Assembly: GCF_000305775.1 (NCBI RefSeq)
Contig: NC_018866.1
Coordinates: 744,001-808,000, forward strand
Length of the DNA: 64,000 bases
Origin: Dehalobacter sp. DCA
Lineage (GTDB): Bacteria > Bacillota > Desulfitobacteriia > Desulfitobacteriales > Syntrophobotulaceae
Direction: 5' to 3'
Part shown: positions 2,091-56,300 of the stretch, in pieces
Numbering within the stretch: position 1 is the first letter of the stretch
Layout: the number at the start of each line of letters is the position of its first letter
Program-made: the position numbers and the translations under genes
Notes under the pieces: model-generated
Database searches by the model: none
The model's input: only the letters and a program-made list of their open reading frames with translations
Told to the model about the DNA's origin: nothing

Positions 2091-2222
2091 TATAATATAA
2101 ACTAAATGAAGAGCTGAATCCAGGACAGCCTGGAGCGGGGGAACTTCTTTTTCTGGGGTGAATCGCATTTTGCGTAGGGCCTATACCTTTGGTCCGAATC
2201 CGTCAACTAACCTCGTAAGCTA
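2091..2222 (+). promoter_or_regulatory. c-di-AMP (ydaO/yuaA) riboswitch with its -10 element
   Basis: The stretch 2108-2222 has the conserved ydaO blocks in order: a GGGGTGAAT element at 2155-2163, GGTCCGAATCCGTCA at 2191-2205, and CTAACCTCGTAAGC at 2207-2220. A TATAAT at 2091-2096 precedes it, with no clear -35. This class binds cyclic di-AMP and usually switches expression off. Wall hydrolases of the NlpC/P60 type, like the gene that follows, are among its classic targets. The gap between trpB and this leader holds only the trpB terminator. Confidence 0.93.
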
Positions 2223-2239
2223 AGAAAGGTGAAAATTTG

Positions 2240-11260: not shown

Positions 11261-11274
11261 AATATTTTCGATGC
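11261..11274. repeat. left copy of the 14-bp flanking direct repeat
   Basis: AATATTTTCGATGC here is repeated exactly at 13228-13241 and flanks the nested element, as expected of a target-site duplication. Confidence 0.75.
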
Positions 11275-11577
11275 GTGAATTGGAAAATTAAATTCCAGTC
11301 CAGCCAAACCCTAACTGGAACTTACCATTGCAAAGATAGTGCTGGAAATTACTCTTCCAAATACCTCGTCAACCGGTTGAAACCAACCAATGGTTATCTT
11401 AAAATATAGTTACTTTACTTCCGCGTAGGATAGGGCAACACTGAGGAGTGACCCGAGCGGCGCGGAAGGTTTGCGGGAAGGCAGCCCATATCGTGCTGTC
11501 TTTTTTTGCTGCCTTTCCGGAAACAAAAGCGATAAACCTCGGGGTCAAGGGGCAGAGCCCCTTGGGTTATACTTGAG

Positions 11578-12952
11578 ATTCAGCAGCATTCCGGATGGTG
11601 TTCTTTACCAGGGAGGATTATCATCATGGCAAAGAATACTCATTTAACATTGGATGAAAGGATCTCTATCCAGTCCTTAGTATCAGCCGGAGCAAAATTC
11701 ACTGCTATTGGAGCGGAATTAGGAAAAGATCCGTCTACTATATCAAAGGAAATCCGCAATCACTACAAGGTAGCGGAGAAGGCTTCATTTAATCCCTGTA
11801 TGCATCGTAAGGCTTGTAAGCATCATTCAGACTTATGTCGGGCATGCAGACAACGTTGGAGCAAAGATTGCCGCAAATGTGATTATGAAAAATGTCACAC
11901 TATCTGCCCTGACTTTAAAGAACTTATCTGTCTTAAACTGAGAAAGCCTCCATATGTCTGCAATGGCTGTAATGAACGCCACAGCTGCAAGCTTCGCCGA
12001 CATCTCTATGATGCTAAGTATGCTCAGGCTGAGTATGAATCTGTCCGCAGCGAAAGCAGACAAGGCTTTGCAATCACTTCGGATGAGCTTGCCAGAATAG
12101 ATAGGATTGTCTCTCCGCTGGTCAAGCAGGGACAGTCTGTTCATCAGATCTGTGTCAATAATGGTGACGCGATCATGCTCGATGAAAAGACAATCTATAA
12201 CTACATTGATGCAGGACTCCTTTCTGTCGGAAATATTGACCTTCCAAGGAAGGTAAGGTACAGAGTACGAAAGAAGAAAAAACCTGTGAAGGTCGATAAG
12301 CAGTGTCATAAGGGCAGAACCTATGATGATTTTCTTGAATACATGGAAGCCAACCGAGATATAGCTGTTGTTGAGATGGACTCGGTTGAAGGCCGTAAGG
12401 GTGGCAAAGTATTCATGACGCTGTATTTCAGAAACTGTAGCCTGATGCTGACGTTCATTCGCGATGCCAATACGGCTAGAACCGTCACTGACAAGATTAA
12501 CTATTTGTATGAGACTTTGGGACACGATGCATTTGTTAAGCTGTTCCCAGTAATACTTACAGACCGTGGAAGTGAGTTTACGGATCCGTTATCCATTGAA
12601 TTCACGGAAGACAAGGTTCGCCGTACACATGTGTTTTACTGCGATCCACAGCGCTCTGATCAGAAAGGAGGCATCGAGGTTACCCATGAATTCATCAGAA
12701 GAGTCCTGCCGAAAGGCACTTCCTTTGACAGCCTAGATCAAGCAGATGTCTCTCTAATGATGAGCCATATCAATTCATACAAAAGAAAAAAGCTGGGCAA
12801 CCAGTCCGCCAACCAGTTGTTCAGCCTTTTCAATGGGGGAGATATCTTGCCTATGCTTGTCATACAAGACATCCCTGCTAATGAAATTAATCTAACACCA
12901 TTGCTGCTGAAGAAATAACAACAGACAGAACACCATCCGGGCTTTGTAGAAT
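11578..12952 (+). mobile_element. IS30-family insertion sequence
   Basis: One transposase gene is bounded by imperfect inverted repeats. The left end has CGGATGGTGTTCT at 11592-11604, and its complement AGAACACCATCCG lies at 12927-12939. The outer ATTC...GAAT bases set the proposed limits of about 1375 bp. A short target duplication could not be fixed. It has inserted into the older element around it. Confidence 0.8.
11626..12918 (+). CDS. IS30-family transposase
   Basis: A 430-residue DDE transposase. The N-terminal helix-turn-helix (LTLDERISIQSLV...KDPSTISKEIRNH) is typical of IS30. It is followed by a cysteine/histidine-rich stretch (about 60-130; CRACRQRW, CRKCDYEKC, CNGCNERHSC) that probably binds zinc. 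The catalytic region has the DDE pattern: EMDSVEG (D about 251), LTDRGSEF (D about 309) and the later E in the QKGGIEV segment (about 345). The frame is intact, so the element may still be active. GGGAGGATTATCATC gives it a good ribosome site. Confidence 0.93.
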   Translation: MAKNTHLTLDERISIQSLVSAGAKFTAIGAELGKDPSTISKEIRNHYKVAEKASFNPCMHRKACKHHSDLCRACRQRWSKDCRKCDYEKCHTICPDFKELICLKLRKPPYVCNGCNERHSCKLRRHLYDAKYAQAEYESVRSESRQGFAITSDELARIDRIVSPLVKQGQSVHQICVNNGDAIMLDEKTIYNYIDAGLLSVGNIDLPRKVRYRVRKKKKPVKVDKQCHKGRTYDDFLEYMEANRDIAVVEMDSVEGRKGGKVFMTLYFRNCSLMLTFIRDANTARTVTDKINYLYETLGHDAFVKLFPVILTDRGSEFTDPLSIEFTEDKVRRTHVFYCDPQRSDQKGGIEVTHEFIRRVLPKGTSFDSLDQADVSLMMSHINSYKRKKLGNQSANQLFSLFNGGDILPMLVIQDIPANEINLTPLLLKK

Positions 12953-13227
12953 AATACCCGATCGGGGGTGGAATTTAATTTTGCGAAAAAAGCGAGTTAA
13001 ATTCGACCTCCGCTTGGTGTGCGTCAATTTTGAGCTGAGTGTTCGATTAATGTAATGCTATCACGGCTGGTGCCGGTTATGCAATCTATTTGGTTTAGTA
13101 ACTTCCGGTTTGGAATCGTAAATTCCGGAAAATCGCGGATTTTTAGATGACTAGAATTTACTCTTGCAACAGGTGTGCTGAACTAGAATTTACAAATGCA
13201 AACTGGAAGTCAGGTTTCCAATTCACC

Positions 13228-13874: not shown

Positions 13875-13892
13875 GTTTAATAGTAAAGGTTT

Positions 13893-13995
13893 ACGTCATG
13901 TAGCCTAACTGCTCTTCGGCTATTGCGCCATCCATGGCGCAAATAGCCGTGCTCCGCATCGTGCTCCGCTTGGCCGCAGATAGACTACATGACGT
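13893..13995. repeat. Family A palindromic repeat, copy 1
   Basis: Unique outer arms ACGTCATGTAG (13893-13903) and CTACATGACGT (13985-13995) enclose a conserved core. The core starts with a hairpin (13918-13950; CGGCTATTGCGCC, ATCCAT loop, GGCGCAAATAGCCG) and continues GTGCTCCGC...GTGCTCCGCTTG. The same core occurs at 29859-29961 and, inverted, at 30266-30369 with different arms. It fills the space between rubrerythrin and the MFS gene. Confidence 0.8.
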
Positions 13996-14133
13996 TATAT
14001 TTTGGGTCCATTAAGCCATTATATAAAGATCTCTTGTCGCTTATTTGCTGTTTTGAAGGCTACAATTACCCAAGAATATAAAAAGAAGCGACTCAAAATA
14101 TCAATTCTCTATACTTGTGGCTTGTGTTTAGCT

Positions 14134-29736: not shown

Positions 29737-29858
29737 CTGCTCTCACCTGTCTCTGTCGTATTTGTAGCCTAAGTTTGTCTTAAGTGGAACTGTTTCTCTG
29801 AAGCATTATTCTTGCATTTTAGCATTATTATAATCTTTTATTCTTTATTCTGTGGCTC

Positions 29859-29961
29859 GCGTATCTTCGTAACCGCCTTTTCGGCTATTGCGCCATCCAT
29901 GGCGCAAATAGCCGCGCTCCACATCCATGTTCCGCTTGTCAGGTCGGTTACGAAGATACGC
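29859..29961. repeat. Family A palindromic repeat, copy 2
   Basis: Outer arms GCGTATCTTCGTAACCG (29859-29875) and its exact complement (29945-29961) form a perfect 17-bp stem. The core hairpin at 29882-29914 is identical to that of copy 1, and CGCTCCACATCCATGTTCCG follows. The arms share nothing with those of copies 1 or 3. Confidence 0.85.
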
Positions 29962-30265
29962 TAATCTGTAGAAAGCTTTGTAGAAAGTTCAGGAAAGCAC
30001 CGACCCGAATACCTTAAGTCCCATTATACTGTCTCAGCTGGTATTCCTCGCTTTGTTGGCAAGCACAAGTCTAAAGTCCTATTTGCCGCCATGTGAAGCA
30101 CGATGTAGAGTGTTGCGCTCAGAAGTAACAATGCTTAGAAGGTACTGATACAAGGAGCAAGTCATAAAGAAGCTAGTTACGGAAGGCAACGGAAGGCAAC
30201 GGAAACGTGCTTATTAAACTTGATAGTGCTTCTTGAACCGCTAAAGTCTCCCATCCTGAAGATCA

Positions 30266-30369
30266 GTCTGTGAGTCACAGTTCCGCGCTAAGCGGAGCAC
30301 GAGGCGGAGCGCGGCTTTTTGTGCCACGGAGGGCACAATAGCCGAAAAGCGGTATTGTGACTCACAGAC
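30266..30369. repeat. Family A palindromic repeat, copy 3 (inverted)
   Basis: Outer arms GTCTGTGAGTCACA (30266-30279) and TGTGACTCACAGAC (30356-30369) are a perfect 14-bp stem. The core lies on the opposite strand relative to copies 1 and 2. Its inner stem uses GTGCC/GGCAC where the others have GCGCC/GGCGC, a compensatory pair change that keeps the hairpin. Confidence 0.85.
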
Positions 30370-30448
30370 CTGCCTCAAAGAACATTTCACCTCTTACAGA
30401 TTGGCGTAACAGCTAGTCGTATTCTTATGCCCCTGCTAAACAGAAATA

Positions 30449-35416: not shown

Positions 35417-35499
35417 ACTTACACAATCTGCAAACAGTCTAAAACACTTCTGCACGATTCGTATGCTACACCTTTCATCCTCCGTGAAAACAGTGCAAA

Positions 35500-35655
35500 A
35501 TGGCTCAGGCAGGTCTTCCGACTCGGTTTCAAAGCAAATTCAGCCTTCCCATTGTAAACAGTGGCAACTTTGAATTTGCTCCACCTTACGGCGGCGGGAC
35601 CGTACAGGTATTTCACCTGTTTCCCTATTATTGCAAAATGATGCAACCTAAGCGA
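35500..35655 (-). promoter_or_regulatory. Cobalamin riboswitch
   Basis: Read on the minus strand from about 35655, the leader has AGGGAAACAGGTGAAA, CCTGTACGGTCCCGCCGC, GGTGGAGC and CAATGGGAAG. It ends in the B12-box region GAGTCGGAAGACCTGCC (near 35524-35508). These are the ordered blocks of the AdoCbl riboswitch. A terminator follows, so cobalamin should shut off transcription of cbiA and the genes behind it. Confidence 0.95.
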
Positions 35656-35659
35656 TTAC

Positions 35660-35688
35660 ATTATATCAGAAGACGCACAACGTGTCCA
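35660..35688 (-). promoter_or_regulatory. promoter of the corrinoid operon
   Basis: TGGACA (35688-35683, minus strand) and TATAAT (35665-35660) are spaced by 17 bp. The start near 35653 coincides with the 5' end of the riboswitch. Confidence 0.85.
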
Positions 35689-47654: not shown

Positions 47655-50600
47655 TTACAGGGAAATCTCAACGACATGGTTTTTCCCGTCGTCGCTTAAC
47701 GCAATTGGAAAATGATCCTGAACTTTATCATCGACTTTAATCTTAGTAGACGTCATACTTTCACCAGTTTCAGCACCTGCCGGCTGCCGGCAGTTTACCT
47801 TAATTTGATACGTTGAATTTTTATGCCGGTAGGTCAGGGAATAGGTTTCCCAGTTGGACGGGACACACGGGGTTAACGACAGTTTATCCCCTGTAATCTG
47901 CAACCCGAGAATGCCCTCCAAAGCCGCCTGATACATCCATCCGGCAGCGCCGGTGTACCATGTCCACCCGCCTCTTCCGACATTCGGCTGAACCGCATAG
48001 ACATCGGCAGCAATTACATAGGGCTCTGCCTTATATTGACTGACTTCAATACCGGTACGGGCATGATTGACCGGATTCAGCATTTGAAACAGCTCCATCG
48101 CCTTATCCCTGCTACCAAGTTTACTGAACGCCAAAATTGCCCAGGCAGCCGCATGTGTATATTGTCCGCCATTCTCTCTGACTCCAGGAATATAGGCTTT
48201 AATATACCCGGGGTTTTTATCTGTTTTATCAAATGGCGGTGTCAACAGTTTTAACAAGGCTGCCTCCTTATCCCAGAGATATCTTTCTACCGCCAGCATG
48301 GCATCTGCTGCTCTGCTCTTTAAGGCGCTGCCTGACAGTATAGACCAGGACTGGGCAATCGCATCAATTTGACACTCGGAATTTGTGATTGAACCTACCG
48401 GAGACCCGTCATCATAATAAGCGCGCCTGTACCAGGAGCCGTCCCAGCCATGTTTCTCCATATTTACCTGCAGATCATCGAGGATTCCGGTATATTTTTC
48501 AACTCTTTCGTTATCATCCTTTCTGGCACAAATCGGGATGAACCTTTTAAGAACTGCCAGGATAAACCAGCCAAGCCAGACACTTTCTCCATTTCCTTCC
48601 CTGCCAATCGTGCTAAAGCCGTCATTCCAGTCCCCGGTCCCGATCAGAGGCAAACCGTGCCCGCCAAATCGCAGGCTGCGGTCTATCGCCCGTACACAGT
48701 GTTCATATACTGAACCACTCTGCTCTGAGGTCTCCGGAACGGCATAACGTTCGTCTTCGTTTTCCCCAAGTGCTTCAAGTTTTAGAAAGCTTGTTTTCTC
48801 TTCTAAAATACTGAAATCTTCGGTATGTTCCAGATAGTCTGCTGTTACGTAAGGCAGCCACAATAAGTCATCTGAGAATTTTGTCCTGATCCCTTTGCCG
48901 GTCTCCAAATGCCACCAGTGCTGTACATCTCCCTCCGGAAACTGTCTGGAGCTGTGCAGGATAATCTGCTTGCGCGTTATTTCCGGTTTGATGACGGCCA
49001 GGGGCATGACATCCTGAAGCTGATCCCTGTAGCCGTAAGCCCCGCCTGTTTGATAGAATCCTGATCTGGCCCAAATCCTGCAGACAATGGTCTGATAGAG
49101 CAGCCAACGATTTACCAGCAGATCAAAGGACGGCTCCGGAGTTGAGATCTGAATATGTGACAAAACATCATCCCAATAGTGGCTCACATCCTGAAATGCC
49201 TCTTCGATTCTGTCCGGACTGCGAAAAGCTTGAACCAATGAAAGTGCCGTTTCTCTATTTTGTTCATCCCCAAGCAGAAAATAGACCGTTTTTTCTTCTC
49301 CGGGATCCAAGGTTACTTGAAGCTGCAGGACTGCACAAGGATCAATATTCGTACCCATCTTGCCTGAAAGACAAGACAATATCCCTTCCGGTTTTGCCAG
49401 GCTGCCGCCTACACCAAGAAATTCAATACGGTCTGATGTTGACGATAGATAATCCGCACCGGAACCGGTAATAAAGGCTGCTCTTCCGGCAAACTCTTCC
49501 TGGTAGACATTCTGACAGAAGATGGTTTTATCGTGCAGTTCGGTGAGCAAATAAGGCATGTTTTGTTCCCTGTTTACCCCCAGCACCCATTCCAAATAAT
49601 AATAGAGCGAGAGACGTTTCGGCAGCGTATTTTTATTGGTCAGCCTCAACGCTGTAATTTTCAGATTCTGTCCTAGCGGGATAAAGACCCTCGTTTCCTG
49701 GTTAATTCCTAAGCTGGAGTGTTCAAAGACCGTGTACCCCTGACCATGCCTGATAAGATAAGGCTGACTGTCCCTGACTGGCTGCGGCAGAGGTGACCAG
49801 TAGTCTTGGGAATCTTCATCCTTGATAAAGATAGCCTCCCCGCTGACATCTAGCAGCGGATCGTTTGACCACGGGGAAAGTTTGTACTCCCTGCTGTTTT
49901 GGGACCAGGTATAGCTCGCCCCTGCTTCAGAAATAATTGTCCCAAATTTTTCATTCGCGATAACATTGACCCAGGGCAACGGGGTTGGCTGATTTTCCTC
50001 ATTGATGATTACATATTCTTTTCCGTTGTCCGTAAATCCGCCATAGCCATTAAAGAATTTTAAGCCTTCTGTCTTTTTACTCTCCAAGACAGTGCGGCAT
50101 GTTTGATTCACATCCTGTACAGGCAGGCTGCCCTTTTCTGACCGCTCGCTGGTAATACGGTTGCCTGCGATCTGTTCTATCGTGATTCTTTCGCCAGAAG
50201 TATGTTCACTGGCAGCCGGCTCGTCTATGATCTTTTCACCGGCTCGCAGACACTTCATGATCTGGTGGTTTAAAGACCCGTTTTCGCCGGAAAATATGAC
50301 ACTTGCAACGGTATGAAGCAAAACGTCATCCTCCGCGGAAAGCTGATCTTTTTTCAGAAGAAATACGCCTCCGGGTTTATTGACAAGTTTCCGAACATGG
50401 CTGATGCTGATTTTTTCCATAATAACTTCCTGGATCGCCTGGAAGTATCCCGATTCGTCCTCATTGAAAATAACCAAGTCGATGTAGAGGCCTTTGATTT
50501 TCCAATATTCATGAATGGTCAGGATTTGATCCACCAGCTTGAGCTGGCTGCTGTCCTGAATCTTCAGCATGACAACCGGCAGGTCTCCTGATATGCCATG

Positions 50601-53600
50601 AGACCAGAGAGAGGTTTGTCCAAGCTGATTAGATGCTGCGGGGCTTTTCTGGATTGGGCAGCCGTAGATGACCTGCCCAGCCAGACTGGAAATCATATTG
50701 GCTTCTCCAAAAGACAGTTGAAGGTTCGTTAATTCCATCAGATTTTGCGACCATGCCAATTCCTTGGCTTGCGTGATCACATAGCCACTGCGATATTTCT
50801 GGGCAAGCTGAAGGACAGATTCCAGCTTATTGCCGTATCCGGTCAGGAAATAGACAGATACCGTTCTTCCCGGATCAATTCTCACCCTGGCCCGCAGACT
50901 TAAGATTGGATCAAGAACCGCTCCTACCGAATTGGACAAAGGCTGGTTAATATCCATGACCCTAGGGTCGGCCAACGTTCGTCCGCGTCCAATAAATTTG
51001 ACTCTGTCTGTCTCATACTCGGTTTCCCCAAACATATTTCCTTCACTGAACAAGGTATGCATCATATAATGTTCAGCGTTGTGCAAATGCCGCGGCCGCC
51101 GAAAAGCGACAAGGGTATTATTTTCATACTTTGTCTGGATGAACAGCTTGCTGAAGGCGGGATGAGCCATATCCGCCGAGAGTTCATCCAAAGCAACTTC
51201 CACATAACTTGTCAGCTGGAGATCCCTGGAATAACTGCTTTGATTGGTCAGCGTGATTTTCCTGATCTCTACAGGATCCTCAGGAGCGACGAATACATCT
51301 GTCTGCGTGATGATATTTCCGTCTTTGCGGATATACTTGACCGTATTCGGGAAACAGGTTACCTTGTATTCCTCAGGCTGCGTCTGTACCGGTTTGGCTG
51401 TAGCCGACCAAAGATTTCCCGAATTAAGATTTTGGACATAGAAAAATGTTCCGTACCCGTCCATGGCGGGATCTTTGCGCCAACGGGTCAGAAAAAGATG
51501 ATTATACTGACTGTAGCCTGTACCGGAAAGTGTAAGCATGACGGCATATTCCCGGTTCGAAATGAAACTGCAGCGCGGAACCCGGGTATTCGGACTCAGG
51601 TAGACCACAGGTTTCTCTCCGAGTTTGCAGGAAATAGCGCGGACTTCCTTTTCTCCGGTTTCTTCGATGATCGGATTAAACGTATATTCTTTCAACGGAA
51701 CCTGCTCCTGCAGCAGCATTTCAATCGATTTAATGACCGGTTCCCGGTGGAAGCGCTCCTGCATCCTGTTTGCTTCAAGGACATTCCCTAAGGCAATCAG
51801 GCTCATCCCCTGATGGTGAGACATATAGCTCTTGACGATGCTGGATTCCTCATTATACGGAACTCTGCTTTTGGTATAGTCAATCGCTTCAAACAGTCCG
51901 AATACACCGTTATAACCTTTATTTTTCATCATACGGAGGTTTTCCATACTTGCTTTAAAATCAATCGGCAGCGCCATAAAAGTCGAATACGGGGATATAA
52001 CCATATCCTTGGACAATCCTCTTTTCAGGCCTAAGCCCGGAACGCCAAAAGCTTTATATTGGTAATTATTCTGGATATCAAAACAGAAAAATCCCGATTC
52101 GGATATCCCCCACGGCATCTTGGCCTTCTTTGAGTGCGCCTGTTGGATCTTTACCACAGAGCGATAGGATTCATCAAGGAGCGTTCCACGATAGTTATTA
52201 AACAGAATAGAAGGCATTAAAAACTCAAACATGGTTCCACTCCAGGATACCAGACAGCGCCTGCCGTTTATTCTGGTCAGCGGCCGGGCCATCTTAAACC
52301 AGTGGCTTTGAGGCACATCCCCTTTGGCAATTGCCAACAGACTGGTCTGCCTGGCTTCCGAGGCCAGCAAGTCATAATAGGATTTATCCCGTTTTCGCTC
52401 TGTTAAATTGTAGCCGATCGTAAACAGCTTGATCTGATCGTCAAACAAGGGCTTGAAGTTCATTCTGTACACTAAATGATGAAGATCTTTCTGTAGCTTC
52501 CCAGCACGGAGCAAAGTCAGAACGGCTCGTTTAAGCCCGCGATAGAGATAAGGCTGTAATTCCTTACCGGCGGTTTCCGGATTGTTCAGCAAGCCCAGAT
52601 ATTCCCGAATAAGAGATTTGACTGGGTACTGTCCGAGCTTTCGCAAAGAATCAGGCAGGTTAGGCAGGGTCAGGAACGGGAAAAAATATTCCAGCGCATT
52701 TTTTTGGTCTTGAAGCATCCGAGCCAGAGCCTCCGGCCAAAAATCTTTTGTGATCAGCCTGAGGTCTGTTTCGGGTTTCTCAGCCGTATTTCCGTTTTGA
52801 TCTGCGGAATTTCTGAAACGATTGCACGTCAGTTTTGCCCATTTGTCTACAAATGCATAACAAGTTTGAAGGTCTGTTATTCCTGCGCAAGCTCCGGCTT
52901 TTTCAGCTCGCTCACTTGCCATGATGGCTTTCAATTCTGTGCTAAAAGATCCCCTGACGTCAGGATCCACCGTGCCGGCATTCTCCTGACTCAGCAGATA
53001 AGTATCCATGAACCCCTGCAGCATGTTTTGCCCGATTAGTGGTTTCCCCGAAATTTCGGCCAGGCCGTTTTTTAGGGCAATCATATAGCCTGCCAGGTTG
53101 CCGCTGTCAACCGTTGAAATATAGATCGGGTGAAGTGGTTCCAGCGTCTGCGTATCGTACCAGTTATAGATATGCCCATTCCATTTTGGCATTCCTTGGA
53201 TCGTCCGGAGCGTATTCCTGACCCGGCTCAGCATTCTTTCCGTGCTTACATAGCCGAGATCTCCGGCTGTAAGGTTAGCCAGCAGCGCCAGCCCGATGTT
53301 GGTAGGTGATGTCCTGCAGGCCTCTCCTTTATGCGGTTCCATCTGGATATTATCCGGAGGCAGATAATTGTTTTTCGCATTAACAAAAAGATCAAAATAA
53401 GCCCAGACCTGCCGGGAGAACATACGAAGCTCCCGGTGGTCTTCGGAAGAAATCTCTGTGATAGAATCAGCATAAGGCAGACTCATTCGATAGGCAAGCC
53501 ATGGTGACGTCAACCAGCTGATCAGCAGGATCGTCAGGATTATCCCGGTAAGCAGGCTCACATAAAAATAACCGGATAGAAAGAAAAGGCTCATCACGAT

Positions 53601-56300
53601 GCCGCGCGCCATTCTATGATAAAAATTCCAGGCGTCTAACTGAAGATGCGTTTCAGAATCTGCCGCCGTCTCCCATTCGAGTAAATTGCGTTTGGTGATG
53701 GTTTGTCTCCCAAGACTCCTAAATACAGCATCCAGTTGATTGTACGCTTGATACGGCAGCACCGCGATACTGAACAGGATCTGGCTGATTCCTAGTTTCA
53801 GCTCAAACTTAAAGATCCTGAAGGTTATGCTGCGGTCGATAAGGCGTCCGCCAATGTTCAGAAGCAGCGGTAAACTTAAACTCAGCAGGACTAAAATCGC
53901 CAGCTGGCTGAAGAACTGATGCAGCGCGGTAACGGCTAGAAAAAGAATAATTATCTGAAAAGGCGTTTCCAGGCTCCGCCTGAGATTGTCAAAAATCTTC
54001 CAGCGGGATACAGCGGAAAAGTCCTGCTGAAACATATAACGCGCAATTTGCCAGTCTCCCCTTATCCAACGATGAGCCCTTTTGGTATGCGACAAAAATT
54101 TGGTCGGATATCCGTCAAAAAATTCAATATCCGTCGCTAAGGCTGTACGCGCATAGAGACCTTCAATCAGGTCGTGACTCAGGATCCTATTATCCGGAAA
54201 GGCATTTTGGGTCACGGCGTGAAATACTTTCAGATCATAGATGCCTTTTCCTGTGAATATCCCTTCGCCAAAGAGATCCTGATAGATATCTGAAATCGCG
54301 CATGTATAGGGATCAATGCCTGCTGTTCCGGTGAATACCCTGGCAAAAGGCGAAGCAAACGCACTAGCCGCCGTAAGACCGATCCGCGGCTGGATAATAC
54401 CATAGCCATAGGCGATACTTTTGCCGTTTTCAGCCAGTCTTGCTTCATTCATCGGATGCGCAATTGTACCAATCAGCTTGCGCGCAGAATCTCTGGGCAG
54501 TATCGTATCGGCATCCAGCGTGATGACATAGCGCATTCCTTGCATGTCTTCCGGCTTTCCTGTCCGGATAAAGTAACTTGTCTCTCCCTCGTGCAGAAGC
54601 AGCCTGTTGAATTCAATCAGCTTTCCCCTTTTTCTTTCCCATCCCATCCAGGTCTTATCTTTTTCGTTCCATTTTCTTTCTCTGTGAAAATAGAAAAAAC
54701 GCTCTTCCCCATATTTATCATTCAATCTTGCCGCCGCTTTGACACCTGCCTGAATGATTTCATCATCCCCGGGCTGTTTGGCCGCAGGGGCATCTGCAAA
54801 ATCACCAAGAACGGCAAAACACAGGTTTTGATCCCGGTTGCTTAAATAGTGTGCTTCTAGTTGTTCCATTTGCTGCCGGACTTTGGACGGATGATTGAAA
54901 ATCGCCGGGATCACAACAATTGTTTTGTATTGTTCCGGTATCCCGTTATCCAGGTACAATTTTGGCAGAAAGTTCGGAGACAGCATTCTGCAGAACAGAC
55001 GATTAATGAAACAGACAGCCATGCCATTGATCAGGATCAGCGCTCCGATCAGGCCCAGAAGCATACTTCCTGCCAATACACTGCCAGAATCATTTTTCGT
55101 CAGATCGAGAAAAATAAGAAAAGGTATCAGTGTCGCCAGAAATATTAACCCGAGGTAGGACAAGGCAGGTTTTAATTTTAGATAGCAGTATATGCCATGA
55201 AAAGACTTCTTTACCCTGCCCCAATTGTCGGCCAGCTCCTTTTCCAGGCGCACCTTGCCGGAACCAAACAAGTAATAGCCAACGTGGTTAAAAGGCGCAG
55301 ACTGGTTTTGGGCAGCTAATTTTTCTAATGTTCTGGCCACAATGATTTCTGTAACTTTATATTTTCCTGCCAGACCTTCTATCTCATGCCTGTATTTGTC
55401 CCGGGAATCGAAATCCATCTTGTCAAATATTTTGGCCGGATCCTTTTGAAGGGTTTGCTGTACCAGGCTGACATCCTCGAAAAAAGCAGACCAGTTCTCA
55501 GCGTTAATCTGTTTGATATCCGTGACAAGTTTGCCCATGGCTGCTCCCTGAGCTGTCAGAAAATGATGTTCAGAATTTACGGCCTTCTCCACCGTTGTAT
55601 TTTGTCTGCTGGCCGCATTATCAAGCCAATTGTATAGTATTTTAGCTTCTGGGCCATGTTCCTTGAGCTTTCTGGCGATTCTTTCCATGAAAATTGCCGT
55701 GAGCACGTCTTCAGTATCATGCCCAGATGCAGGAGCCATTTCAGCTACAGGCGTTTCAGTGTCCGTGCATCCGTCAAATACAATCTTCAGCCAATCATCA
55801 GCTTTTCTTCTTTCGGTCTGGATATAAAGAATGCGCTCAACCTGATAGTAGACTTTTTCCAGCAGCAGTACTTTTAGCATCATTGGAACAGCCCATATCT
55901 CAGCAGATGAAAGCGGTGCCTCTTCTTGATACCCGGCGATAAACGCCTTTAACTGATCAAAATTCAATTCATGTTCGCACTGTTTTAGAAATTCGGCTAT
56001 AATCAGATAAATTCTGGGGTAACCGGCGTTATCCCCTCCTTTTAAATACTGTAGCTTGCTTTCATATTCTTTGGAGATATCCTTGGTCAGTCCTGTGATT
56101 AATTCGCTGATAATGTAGTAATTGTCTAGATACCATTCTGCTGCGGGAATAACGTCTTCCGTTTCATAGTAATATTCATTGATTGGAGAATAAGCTTCAC
56201 GGATATAGGCACTTTGTCTTTTAATAACCGGCAGCAGGCTCCGACCTTTAGGGGTAAGCCCCAGCCAGTTATGGAATTGAGCAAGTTCCGAGATCTTCAT
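47655..56300 (-). CDS. Cyclic beta-1,2-glucan synthase (NdvB/ChvB type)
   Basis: A 2881-residue membrane enzyme that makes cyclic beta-1,2-glucans. After an N-terminal domain (1-360) there are two or more helices (about 375-430). A GT84/GT2-like transferase follows, with VITLDADTILPRDSARKL (about 590-610) and the QxxRW-like HRWIRGDW (about 740). A helix cluster lies at about 770-940. The glycoamylase-like domain is near 1240-1500 (SWSGTMFEFLMPSILF, SYMSHHQGMSL). Two GH94 N-terminal beta-sandwiches lie at about 1560-1850 and 2080-2290. The GH94 phosphorylase domain (about 2320-2810) carries the acid in IGTGDWNDG (about 2557). The order matches the proteobacterial ChvB/NdvB family. It is a single 8.6-kb gene with no frameshift. 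Confidence 0.92.
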   Translation of the reverse strand: MKISELAQFHNWLGLTPKGRSLLPVIKRQSAYIREAYSPINEYYYETEDVIPAAEWYLDNYYIISELITGLTKDISKEYESKLQYLKGGDNAGYPRIYLIIAEFLKQCEHELNFDQLKAFIAGYQEEAPLSSAEIWAVPMMLKVLLLEKVYYQVERILYIQTERRKADDWLKIVFDGCTDTETPVAEMAPASGHDTEDVLTAIFMERIARKLKEHGPEAKILYNWLDNAASRQNTTVEKAVNSEHHFLTAQGAAMGKLVTDIKQINAENWSAFFEDVSLVQQTLQKDPAKIFDKMDFDSRDKYRHEIEGLAGKYKVTEIIVARTLEKLAAQNQSAPFNHVGYYLFGSGKVRLEKELADNWGRVKKSFHGIYCYLKLKPALSYLGLIFLATLIPFLIFLDLTKNDSGSVLAGSMLLGLIGALILINGMAVCFINRLFCRMLSPNFLPKLYLDNGIPEQYKTIVVIPAIFNHPSKVRQQMEQLEAHYLSNRDQNLCFAVLGDFADAPAAKQPGDDEIIQAGVKAAARLNDKYGEERFFYFHRERKWNEKDKTWMGWERKRGKLIEFNRLLLHEGETSYFIRTGKPEDMQGMRYVITLDADTILPRDSARKLIGTIAHPMNEARLAENGKSIAYGYGIIQPRIGLTAASAFASPFARVFTGTAGIDPYTCAISDIYQDLFGEGIFTGKGIYDLKVFHAVTQNAFPDNRILSHDLIEGLYARTALATDIEFFDGYPTKFLSHTKRAHRWIRGDWQIARYMFQQDFSAVSRWKIFDNLRRSLETPFQIIILFLAVTALHQFFSQLAILVLLSLSLPLLLNIGGRLIDRSITFRIFKFELKLGISQILFSIAVLPYQAYNQLDAVFRSLGRQTITKRNLLEWETAADSETHLQLDAWNFYHRMARGIVMSLFFLSGYFYVSLLTGIILTILLISWLTSPWLAYRMSLPYADSITEISSEDHRELRMFSRQVWAYFDLFVNAKNNYLPPDNIQMEPHKGEACRTSPTNIGLALLANLTAGDLGYVSTERMLSRVRNTLRTIQGMPKWNGHIYNWYDTQTLEPLHPIYISTVDSGNLAGYMIALKNGLAEISGKPLIGQNMLQGFMDTYLLSQENAGTVDPDVRGSFSTELKAIMASERAEKAGACAGITDLQTCYAFVDKWAKLTCNRFRNSADQNGNTAEKPETDLRLITKDFWPEALARMLQDQKNALEYFFPFLTLPNLPDSLRKLGQYPVKSLIREYLGLLNNPETAGKELQPYLYRGLKRAVLTLLRAGKLQKDLHHLVYRMNFKPLFDDQIKLFTIGYNLTERKRDKSYYDLLASEARQTSLLAIAKGDVPQSHWFKMARPLTRINGRRCLVSWSGTMFEFLMPSILFNNYRGTLLDESYRSVVKIQQAHSKKAKMPWGISESGFFCFDIQNNYQYKAFGVPGLGLKRGLSKDMVISPYSTFMALPIDFKASMENLRMMKNKGYNGVFGLFEAIDYTKSRVPYNEESSIVKSYMSHHQGMSLIALGNVLEANRMQERFHREPVIKSIEMLLQEQVPLKEYTFNPIIEETGEKEVRAISCKLGEKPVVYLSPNTRVPRCSFISNREYAVMLTLSGTGYSQYNHLFLTRWRKDPAMDGYGTFFYVQNLNSGNLWSATAKPVQTQPEEYKVTCFPNTVKYIRKDGNIITQTDVFVAPEDPVEIRKITLTNQSSYSRDLQLTSYVEVALDELSADMAHPAFSKLFIQTKYENNTLVAFRRPRHLHNAEHYMMHTLFSEGNMFGETEYETDRVKFIGRGRTLADPRVMDINQPLSNSVGAVLDPILSLRARVRIDPGRTVSVYFLTGYGNKLESVLQLAQKYRSGYVITQAKELAWSQNLMELTNLQLSFGEANMISSLAGQVIYGCPIQKSPAASNQLGQTSLWSHGISGDLPVVMLKIQDSSQLKLVDQILTIHEYWKIKGLYIDLVIFNEDESGYFQAIQEVIMEKISISHVRKLVNKPGGVFLLKKDQLSAEDDVLLHTVASVIFSGENGSLNHQIMKCLRAGEKIIDEPAASEHTSGERITIEQIAGNRITSERSEKGSLPVQDVNQTCRTVLESKKTEGLKFFNGYGGFTDNGKEYVIINEENQPTPLPWVNVIANEKFGTIISEAGASYTWSQNSREYKLSPWSNDPLLDVSGEAIFIKDEDSQDYWSPLPQPVRDSQPYLIRHGQGYTVFEHSSLGINQETRVFIPLGQNLKITALRLTNKNTLPKRLSLYYYLEWVLGVNREQNMPYLLTELHDKTIFCQNVYQEEFAGRAAFITGSGADYLSSTSDRIEFLGVGGSLAKPEGILSCLSGKMGTNIDPCAVLQLQVTLDPGEEKTVYFLLGDEQNRETALSLVQAFRSPDRIEEAFQDVSHYWDDVLSHIQISTPEPSFDLLVNRWLLYQTIVCRIWARSGFYQTGGAYGYRDQLQDVMPLAVIKPEITRKQIILHSSRQFPEGDVQHWWHLETGKGIRTKFSDDLLWLPYVTADYLEHTEDFSILEEKTSFLKLEALGENEDERYAVPETSEQSGSVYEHCVRAIDRSLRFGGHGLPLIGTGDWNDGFSTIGREGNGESVWLGWFILAVLKRFIPICARKDDNERVEKYTGILDDLQVNMEKHGWDGSWYRRAYYDDGSPVGSITNSECQIDAIAQSWSILSGSALKSRAADAMLAVERYLWDKEAALLKLLTPPFDKTDKNPGYIKAYIPGVRENGGQYTHAAAWAILAFSKLGSRDKAMELFQMLNPVNHARTGIEVSQYKAEPYVIAADVYAVQPNVGRGGWTWYTGAAGWMYQAALEGILGLQITGDKLSLTPCVPSNWETYSLTYRHKNSTYQIKVNCRQPAGAETGESMTSTKIKVDDKVQDHFPIALSDDGKNHVVEISL

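Follow-up and report, generated by a model that had tools for sequence, protein, structure and literature searches.

An apparently mobile family of nested hairpins in Dehalobacter sp. DCA, related to TwoAYGGAY RNA and with loops of putative CsrA-site form

Three hairpins of the Dehalobacter sp. DCA genome belong to a dispersed repeat family for which a relationship to TwoAYGGAY RNA (Rfam RF01731; Weinberg et al. 2010, PMC2864571) is strongly supported, as a divergent relative and not as a member. That the feature is a dispersed repeat with an Rfam relative is the ordinary part of the finding. What is unusual is the form of the element: a mobile nested palindrome with swappable arms and cores, an outer stem kept by compensatory change, and loops that have the form of textbook CsrA sites. 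We propose that the family is a mobile, non-coding nested hairpin of the MITE kind, divergently related to TwoAYGGAY RNA, whose transcript would be a CsrA-binding RNA; we judge the chances of this combined reading to be about even.

The window, a stretch of 64 000 nt from contig NC_018866.1 (positions 744 001 to 808 000), contains three copies exactly where the initial annotation had placed them (13893-13995, 29859-29961 and 30266-30369), and the perfect outer stems of 11, 17 and 14 bp reported for copies 1, 2 and 3 were confirmed. The corresponding inverted repeats were listed at 20, 17 and 21 nt. Copy 1 is a solo hairpin element on the minus strand (13885-14000) with arms of the type designated II below, and scored 110.1 bits (E 2.4e-26) with R1, a covariance model built from 34 copies. 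Its outer arms, 13893-13912 and 13976-13995, pair perfectly over 11 bp (13893-13903/13985-13995), followed by two mismatches. They enclose hairpin 1 (13916-13949, minus strand), with the apical loop ATGGAT on the minus strand at 13930-13935, and hairpin 2 (13951-13969, minus strand), in which GCGGAGC/GCGGAGC arms pair with G-A mismatches and the loop is ACGAT, the GGA being gone. The orthologous site of copy 1 is occupied in two congeners.

Copies 2 and 3 form a composite element of two inverted, outward-facing hairpins (29851-30376), separated by a 295 bp non-coding spacer (29967-30261), and an orthologous pair is found in genomes G001 and G004. Copy 2 (29851-29966, minus strand; R1 score 98.9 bits) has a so far private arm, with a perfect 17 bp stem between 29859-29875 and 29945-29961, a hairpin 1 at 29881-29914 (minus strand, loop ATGGAT at 29895-29900) and a hairpin 2 at 29916-29935 (minus strand) with a ACATGGATGT loop. 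Copy 3 (30262-30376, plus strand; R1 score 119.1 bits, E 1.1e-28) has type I arms at 30266-30286 and 30349-30369 that match at 90 % over 21 nt, the perfect 14 bp lying at 30266-30279/30356-30369. Its hairpin 2 lies at 30292-30310 (plus strand), and its hairpin 1 (30312-30344, plus strand) carries the loop ACGGAG (30326-30331) on a GTGCC/GGCAC stem.

The common core held up, with the 34 nt hairpin 1 occurring twice in the window at 0 mismatches (0.00 expected) and the GCTCCGC pair occurring twice (0.07 expected). When the copies were folded as had been suggested, the single-strand folds of all three were better than every dinucleotide shuffle: z-scores for copies 1 to 3 were -6.3, -9.0 and -5.7 as DNA, and -8.1, -9.1 and -6.7 for the GGA strand as RNA.

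Other features were observed in the window. A c-di-AMP (ydaO) riboswitch lies at 2102-2236 (plus strand), and a cobalamin riboswitch at 35491-35666 (minus strand) is positioned upstream of the cobalamin gene cluster that holds copies 2 and 3. An IS30-family transposase is encoded at 11626-12918 (plus strand), and 11273-13227, between the aligned blocks around it, is missing from the orthologous place in G001. Beside the G001 ortholog of 13885-14000 are ~240 bp (L128:4022-4260; G001:C1:1604022-1604260) that are missing from the window, bounded by AGCCTTACACAGATAT...ATATCTGTGTAAGGCT and holding CATGCCAA...TTGGCATG; this insert looks like another nested inverted-repeat element, and one fold covering most of its length was no better than shuffles. 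At 47655-56300 (minus strand), a 2881 aa ORF probably encodes a cyclic beta-glucan synthase-like protein: its translation contains glycosyl hydrolase 94 domains together with a putative glucoamylase domain, and it matches a glycosyltransferase weakly.

The genome-wide search for the core gave 43 BLAST matches in the host genome, and R1 identified 83 places at E<=0.05 in its 3.07 Mb. Each of four congeneric genomes gave from 58 to at least 60 R1 matches, several other genera of the same order also gave matches, and a pattern search of named genomes found the family in Peptococcaceae MAGs, Gracilibacter and Ca. Dichloromethanomonas. Neighbouring copies <500 bp apart were outward-facing in 16 of 17 cases, with the 3' ends of their GGA strands pointing out (p=3e-9 against one in four), and such pairs are separated by ~130-430 bp. 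Pairs decay through deletion to solos and hybrids. In UBA6116 (L046, L054 and L055), type I-like hairpins were seen embedded in a longer repeat whose closing stem, AATCCTGC...GCAGGATT, represents a third kind of outermost stem.

The outer arms had been described as unique at each locus. This proved wrong, as at least three arm families recur genome-wide: GTCTGNGNNCCACA (type I), ACGTCATG (type II) and TCTCCGTAATGG (type III), besides a few private arms. Conserved outer arms in genome-wide copies had been named as evidence against the idea of core insertion, and such conservation was found in part, arms of the same type being ~0.81 identical and arms of different types ~0.30. Arm identity tracks arm type (within minus between 0.505, p<0.0005), whereas core identity was 0.82 within an arm type and 0.81 between. 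Hairpin 1 was independent of arm type (-0.004, p=0.64) and hairpin 2 slightly linked to it (0.025, p=0.036). An enlarged core, with a 51 nt addition that contains two further A.GGA. hairpins, was found within all three main arm types, and at the orthologous locus L013 the same arms hold the enlarged core in G001 and the small core in the host genome. This decoupling, the enlarged core in three arm types and L013 together indicate that arms and core are exchangeable modules, and the earlier sense of core and arms as separate modules thus finds support in both the identity statistics and L013.

The initial annotation had suggested that the core enters existing hairpin loops or makes inverted target duplications, so that the arms would be local. 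The decoupling of core and arm type fits this proposal, as does the outermost GGGGCTGTTGCAAAAC stem of related genera, which is also found without any core. Against it, the same arm families are found at unlinked loci and, in the case of type III, in more than one genus, one element can hold a pair of hairpins with different arm types, and the suggested comparison of orthologous sites returned five element-free places in sister genomes with neither arm nor hairpin (L028, L036, L026/L207, L039 and L200). The idea that the arms pre-exist locally or are made from the target is already largely refuted, and we regard it as very improbable. Nested modules may be gained or lost at the level of the outermost GGGGCTGTTGCAAAAC stem. 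A candidate for clean core gain inside a bare GGGGCTGTTGC stem was rejected: bare stems exist, but that at L236 bears a type III arm remnant, which speaks for loss.

In every stem, structure is selected or maintained by compensatory change. Across the 34 copies, 95.7 % of cells were paired, vs 78.1 % in shuffles, and double-sided changes numbered 188 cells vs 53.5 in shuffles, counts that come from related copies and are not independent events. Of 18 outer-stem pairs, 17 showed double changes, and slid controls all collapsed in the pairing test. The compensatory change first noted in the inner stem, GCGCC/GGCGC against GTGCC/GGCAC, is genuine and general, the pair concerned being C-G in 19 of the 34 genome copies and U-A in another 14.

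The mismatches of the outer stem carry information on the folding strand. Read on the GGA strand, its non-Watson-Crick cells comprised 23 G-T and four A-C, or 16 and four if each arm type contributes a single count per column (p=0.012). A strand-symmetric process would be expected to give equality, so the GGA strand apparently folds, either as RNA or as single-stranded DNA; single-stranded DNA also tolerates G-T better than A-C. RF01731 members showed a similar trend that was not significant (25:14). These counts bear on the possibility that arm complementarity is unselected, with template switching at the palindrome copying arm onto arm so that the arms drift while the pairing stays. Such a process would fit the frequent apex deletion and fusion of palindromes in this family, and also the closer match of arms to their own partner (92.6 %) than to same-type arms of other copies (87.5 %). 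Strand-symmetric correction predicts otherwise than an excess of G-T over A-C of at least 4 to 1 on one strand, and we consider template switching an unlikely source of the pairing.

Comparison of genomes strongly supports the view that the family is recently mobile and, like a MITE, short, non-coding and multicopy. The unlinked units of MAG AS27yjCOA_185, compared within a length class, were mostly 97-99 % identical (one divergent copy was lower), and their flanks were at chance likeness, ~0.48. The type III hairpin of this MAG is nested in a further stem, GGGGCTGTTGCAAAAC...GTTTTGCAACAGCCCC; some units carry extra core-nested hairpins, GGA-looped or not, and bare outer stems occur. Plain hairpins without GGA loops (GCGTTACGCATGCGTAACGC and CGTGAAGGCTGGTAGCCTTCACG) were seen there at fixed core positions (L235, L240 and L245-L248).

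Orthologous loci record remodelling as well as presence and absence. Where the host genome has the L002/L006 pair, G001 has one hybrid, in which the outer halves of a type I and a type II hairpin are fused at the apex. At L003, a pair in one genome is a solo at the ortholog, formed between direct repeats, and another locus is occupied by a pair (G004), a solo (host genome) or a truncated form (G001). The outer arms of the L010/L037 element are swapped left to right between orthologs, and the L200 hairpin is missing from G001 and G002. A truncated copy at the 3' end of an ORF (L036; G000:C1:442412-442478) alters the last codons relative to G001.

No consistent target duplication was found at the empty sites L028, L200, L026/L207, L039 and L036, where flanks were too different and junctions untidy. 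At L200 the comparison of G004 with G001 suggested a clean duplication (TTATT on both sides), but the junction in G002 differs and the candidate was set aside. Element ends of the form GGGYTNGTCT... recur among copies, with 13 strict matches to the end motif in the host genome. A search of 2 Mb of G001 found no autonomous element sharing these ends; the few arm motifs outside model matches showed no transposase-flanking pattern. On inspection, the arms also lacked the conserved GTT/AAC core site of integron attC sites, and this identification was rejected.

Since 2010 TwoAYGGAY has remained an orphan among RNA families, filed by Rfam as cis-regulatory. RF01731 was the best Rfam match, on the complementary strand and over the full model, for copy 2 of the window and for copies in L012, L008 and L018. 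The gathering score of 43 bits was not reached: the best scores were 37.2 bits in the host genome, for copy 2, and 33.9 in a relative, the window has no match at gathering, and none of the copies searched matched a known Rfam family above threshold. In the reciprocal direction, R1 detected RF01731 loci at the same positions, five of 30 at E<=0.01. The hairpin 1 loop reads A.GGA. in 33 of 34 copies, but has the strict AYGGAY form in just 13; the GGA of hairpin 2 is retained in ~26 of 34 copies and lost in ~8. The architecture agrees with that of RF01731: two hairpins sit inside a long outer stem of poor conservation, and one stem has G-A mismatches. In RF01731 members G-A is in excess over C-T. 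RF01731 is itself multicopy, with 34 of 398 Bacillota genomes above the cut-off and many of these holding at least six, and its members form giant nested palindromes, the outer arms of which are private.

The loops suggest a link to CsrA. The high-affinity RsmE/CsrA consensus defined by NMR is a hexaloop ANGGAX directly on a stem (PMC4005645), and TwoAYGGAY was linked to CsrA in a 2014 proposal (PMC4333381). In four sets of copies, all 137 ANGGAX hexaloops were closed by C-G, all four bases occurred at both N and X, and shuffled sets gave <1 such loop each; as A, G, G and A are prescribed by the regular expression itself, the informative features are the closing pair, the freedom at N and X, and the count relative to shuffles. 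The host genome encodes csrA directly after fliW, and the conserved arginine of the RNA-binding region was recognized on inspection. Among sampled Bacillota, csrA was present in 31 of 32 RF01731 carriers vs 32 of 48 non-carriers (p=0.0015, uncorrected for shared ancestry). Inside the order of the host no association was visible (9/11 vs 41/50), because csrA is nearly universal there, and it was missing from two carriers that are MAGs of 84 % and 91 % completeness. From the loops we infer that the family presents CsrA-binding sites, and a spreading repeat may therefore seed the genome with CsrA-binding RNA.

The gene context of the copies bears on whether they act on neighbouring transcripts. 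One copy of 31 lay between divergent genes, vs 21 % expected (p=0.008; ORFs from a simple script). Between tandem genes, 18 copies were sense and 16 antisense, which does not favour a cis-regulatory RNA. The depletion between divergent genes would suit a cis-acting transcript hairpin, such as a bidirectional terminator, an RNA 3'-end protector or an insulator in the manner of REP or BOX, and the outermost stem of AS27 and its relatives, GGGGCTGTTGC...GCAACAGCCCC, often followed by TT, is terminator-like. However, arms in the host genome usually have no T run after them, and a terminator would leave the invariant A.GGA loops unexplained. The rarity of the T run led us to reject termination as a general role, and we consider cis-acting hairpins of any of these kinds improbable.

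A stronger alternative to the CsrA reading, though still an unlikely one in our estimation, is that the family is purely selfish DNA. The end hairpins would then be recognized as single-stranded DNA, in a system of REPIN/RAYT or IS200/IS605 derivation, or as terminal repeats of a DDE transposase, and the GGA loops would belong to transposition recognition, unrelated to CsrA. Outward-facing pairs with a hairpin at either end, near-identical copies at unlinked sites and the absence of sense bias in tandem gene contexts are all compatible with this explanation, and the G-T over A-C asymmetry is also expected if one DNA strand must fold. The addition of extra GGA-loop hairpins within the core argues against it, and the freedom at N and X fits a protein that reads A.GGA in RNA. 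In addition, 30 % identity between arm types is too low for one arm-reading transposase.

Under the CsrA reading that we prefer, read-through transcription would allow the GGA strand to fold into an outer stem presenting two hairpins, or four in enlarged cores. The presented loops would each offer a putative high-affinity CsrA binding site, and every transcribed copy could serve as a local or titrating site. Outer arms would need only to pair, so that their sequence would drift with compensation, while recombination at the shared core and the palindrome apex would swap cores. Such freedom of the arm sequence would explain why it appears locus-made.

More tentatively, the family may represent a class of Bacillota mobile element with a host-regulator decoy as cargo, its dispersed copies amounting to a genome-wide reservoir of CsrA binding; we think this extension possible but doubtful. 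The outward-facing arrangement of pairs would mean that transcription either way yields a CsrA-binding hairpin. If true, the decoy interpretation would account for TwoAYGGAY RNA and provide the CsrA-titrating RNAs so far missing from bacteria with FliW-CsrA. The present evidence recasts relatives of TwoAYGGAY as a nested palindrome that moves, and it explains the variability of the outer stem by compensatory drift and core swapping. Should the loops bind CsrA, a transposable repeat would be distributing the sites of a global regulator, a new route to post-transcriptional rewiring. The puzzle of the 'unique arms' turns into a case, open to testing, in which structure persists although sequence does not, and the history of the family is readable from pairs, solos, hybrids and empty sites across five sequenced congeners.

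Among known systems, TwoAYGGAY RNA shares the long outer stem of variable sequence, the two A.GGA.-loop hairpins and the G-A mismatches in one stem; the present family differs in its ANGGAN loops, ~80 dispersed copies, outward-facing pairs, recurrent arm families and four-loop core variant. Several A.GGA. hexaloop hairpins per RNA are also found in CsrB/CsrC/RsmX/Y/Z, but these are single sRNA genes of Gammaproteobacteria, whereas the present family is scattered in dozens of copies that lack an evident promoter, and its host belongs to the Bacillota and has FliW-CsrA. MITEs, RUP, BOX, Correia and ERIC elements are likewise short, non-coding, intergenic, hairpin-forming, high in copy number and spread to unlinked places. 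Unlike for MITEs, no cognate transposase or target duplication was identified for the present element, and compensatory evolution together with core and arm exchange would be unusual for them. REPINs, REP doublets mobilized by RAYT (PMC3116915), resemble the family in having an inverted hairpin doublet as the larger unit, with solos too, but the present hairpins are ~100 nt long with multi-branched cores. Mitochondrial double-hairpin elements and GC clusters are also moving nested or double hairpins with sequence families; they inhabit different genomes, and we draw the parallel without claiming homology.
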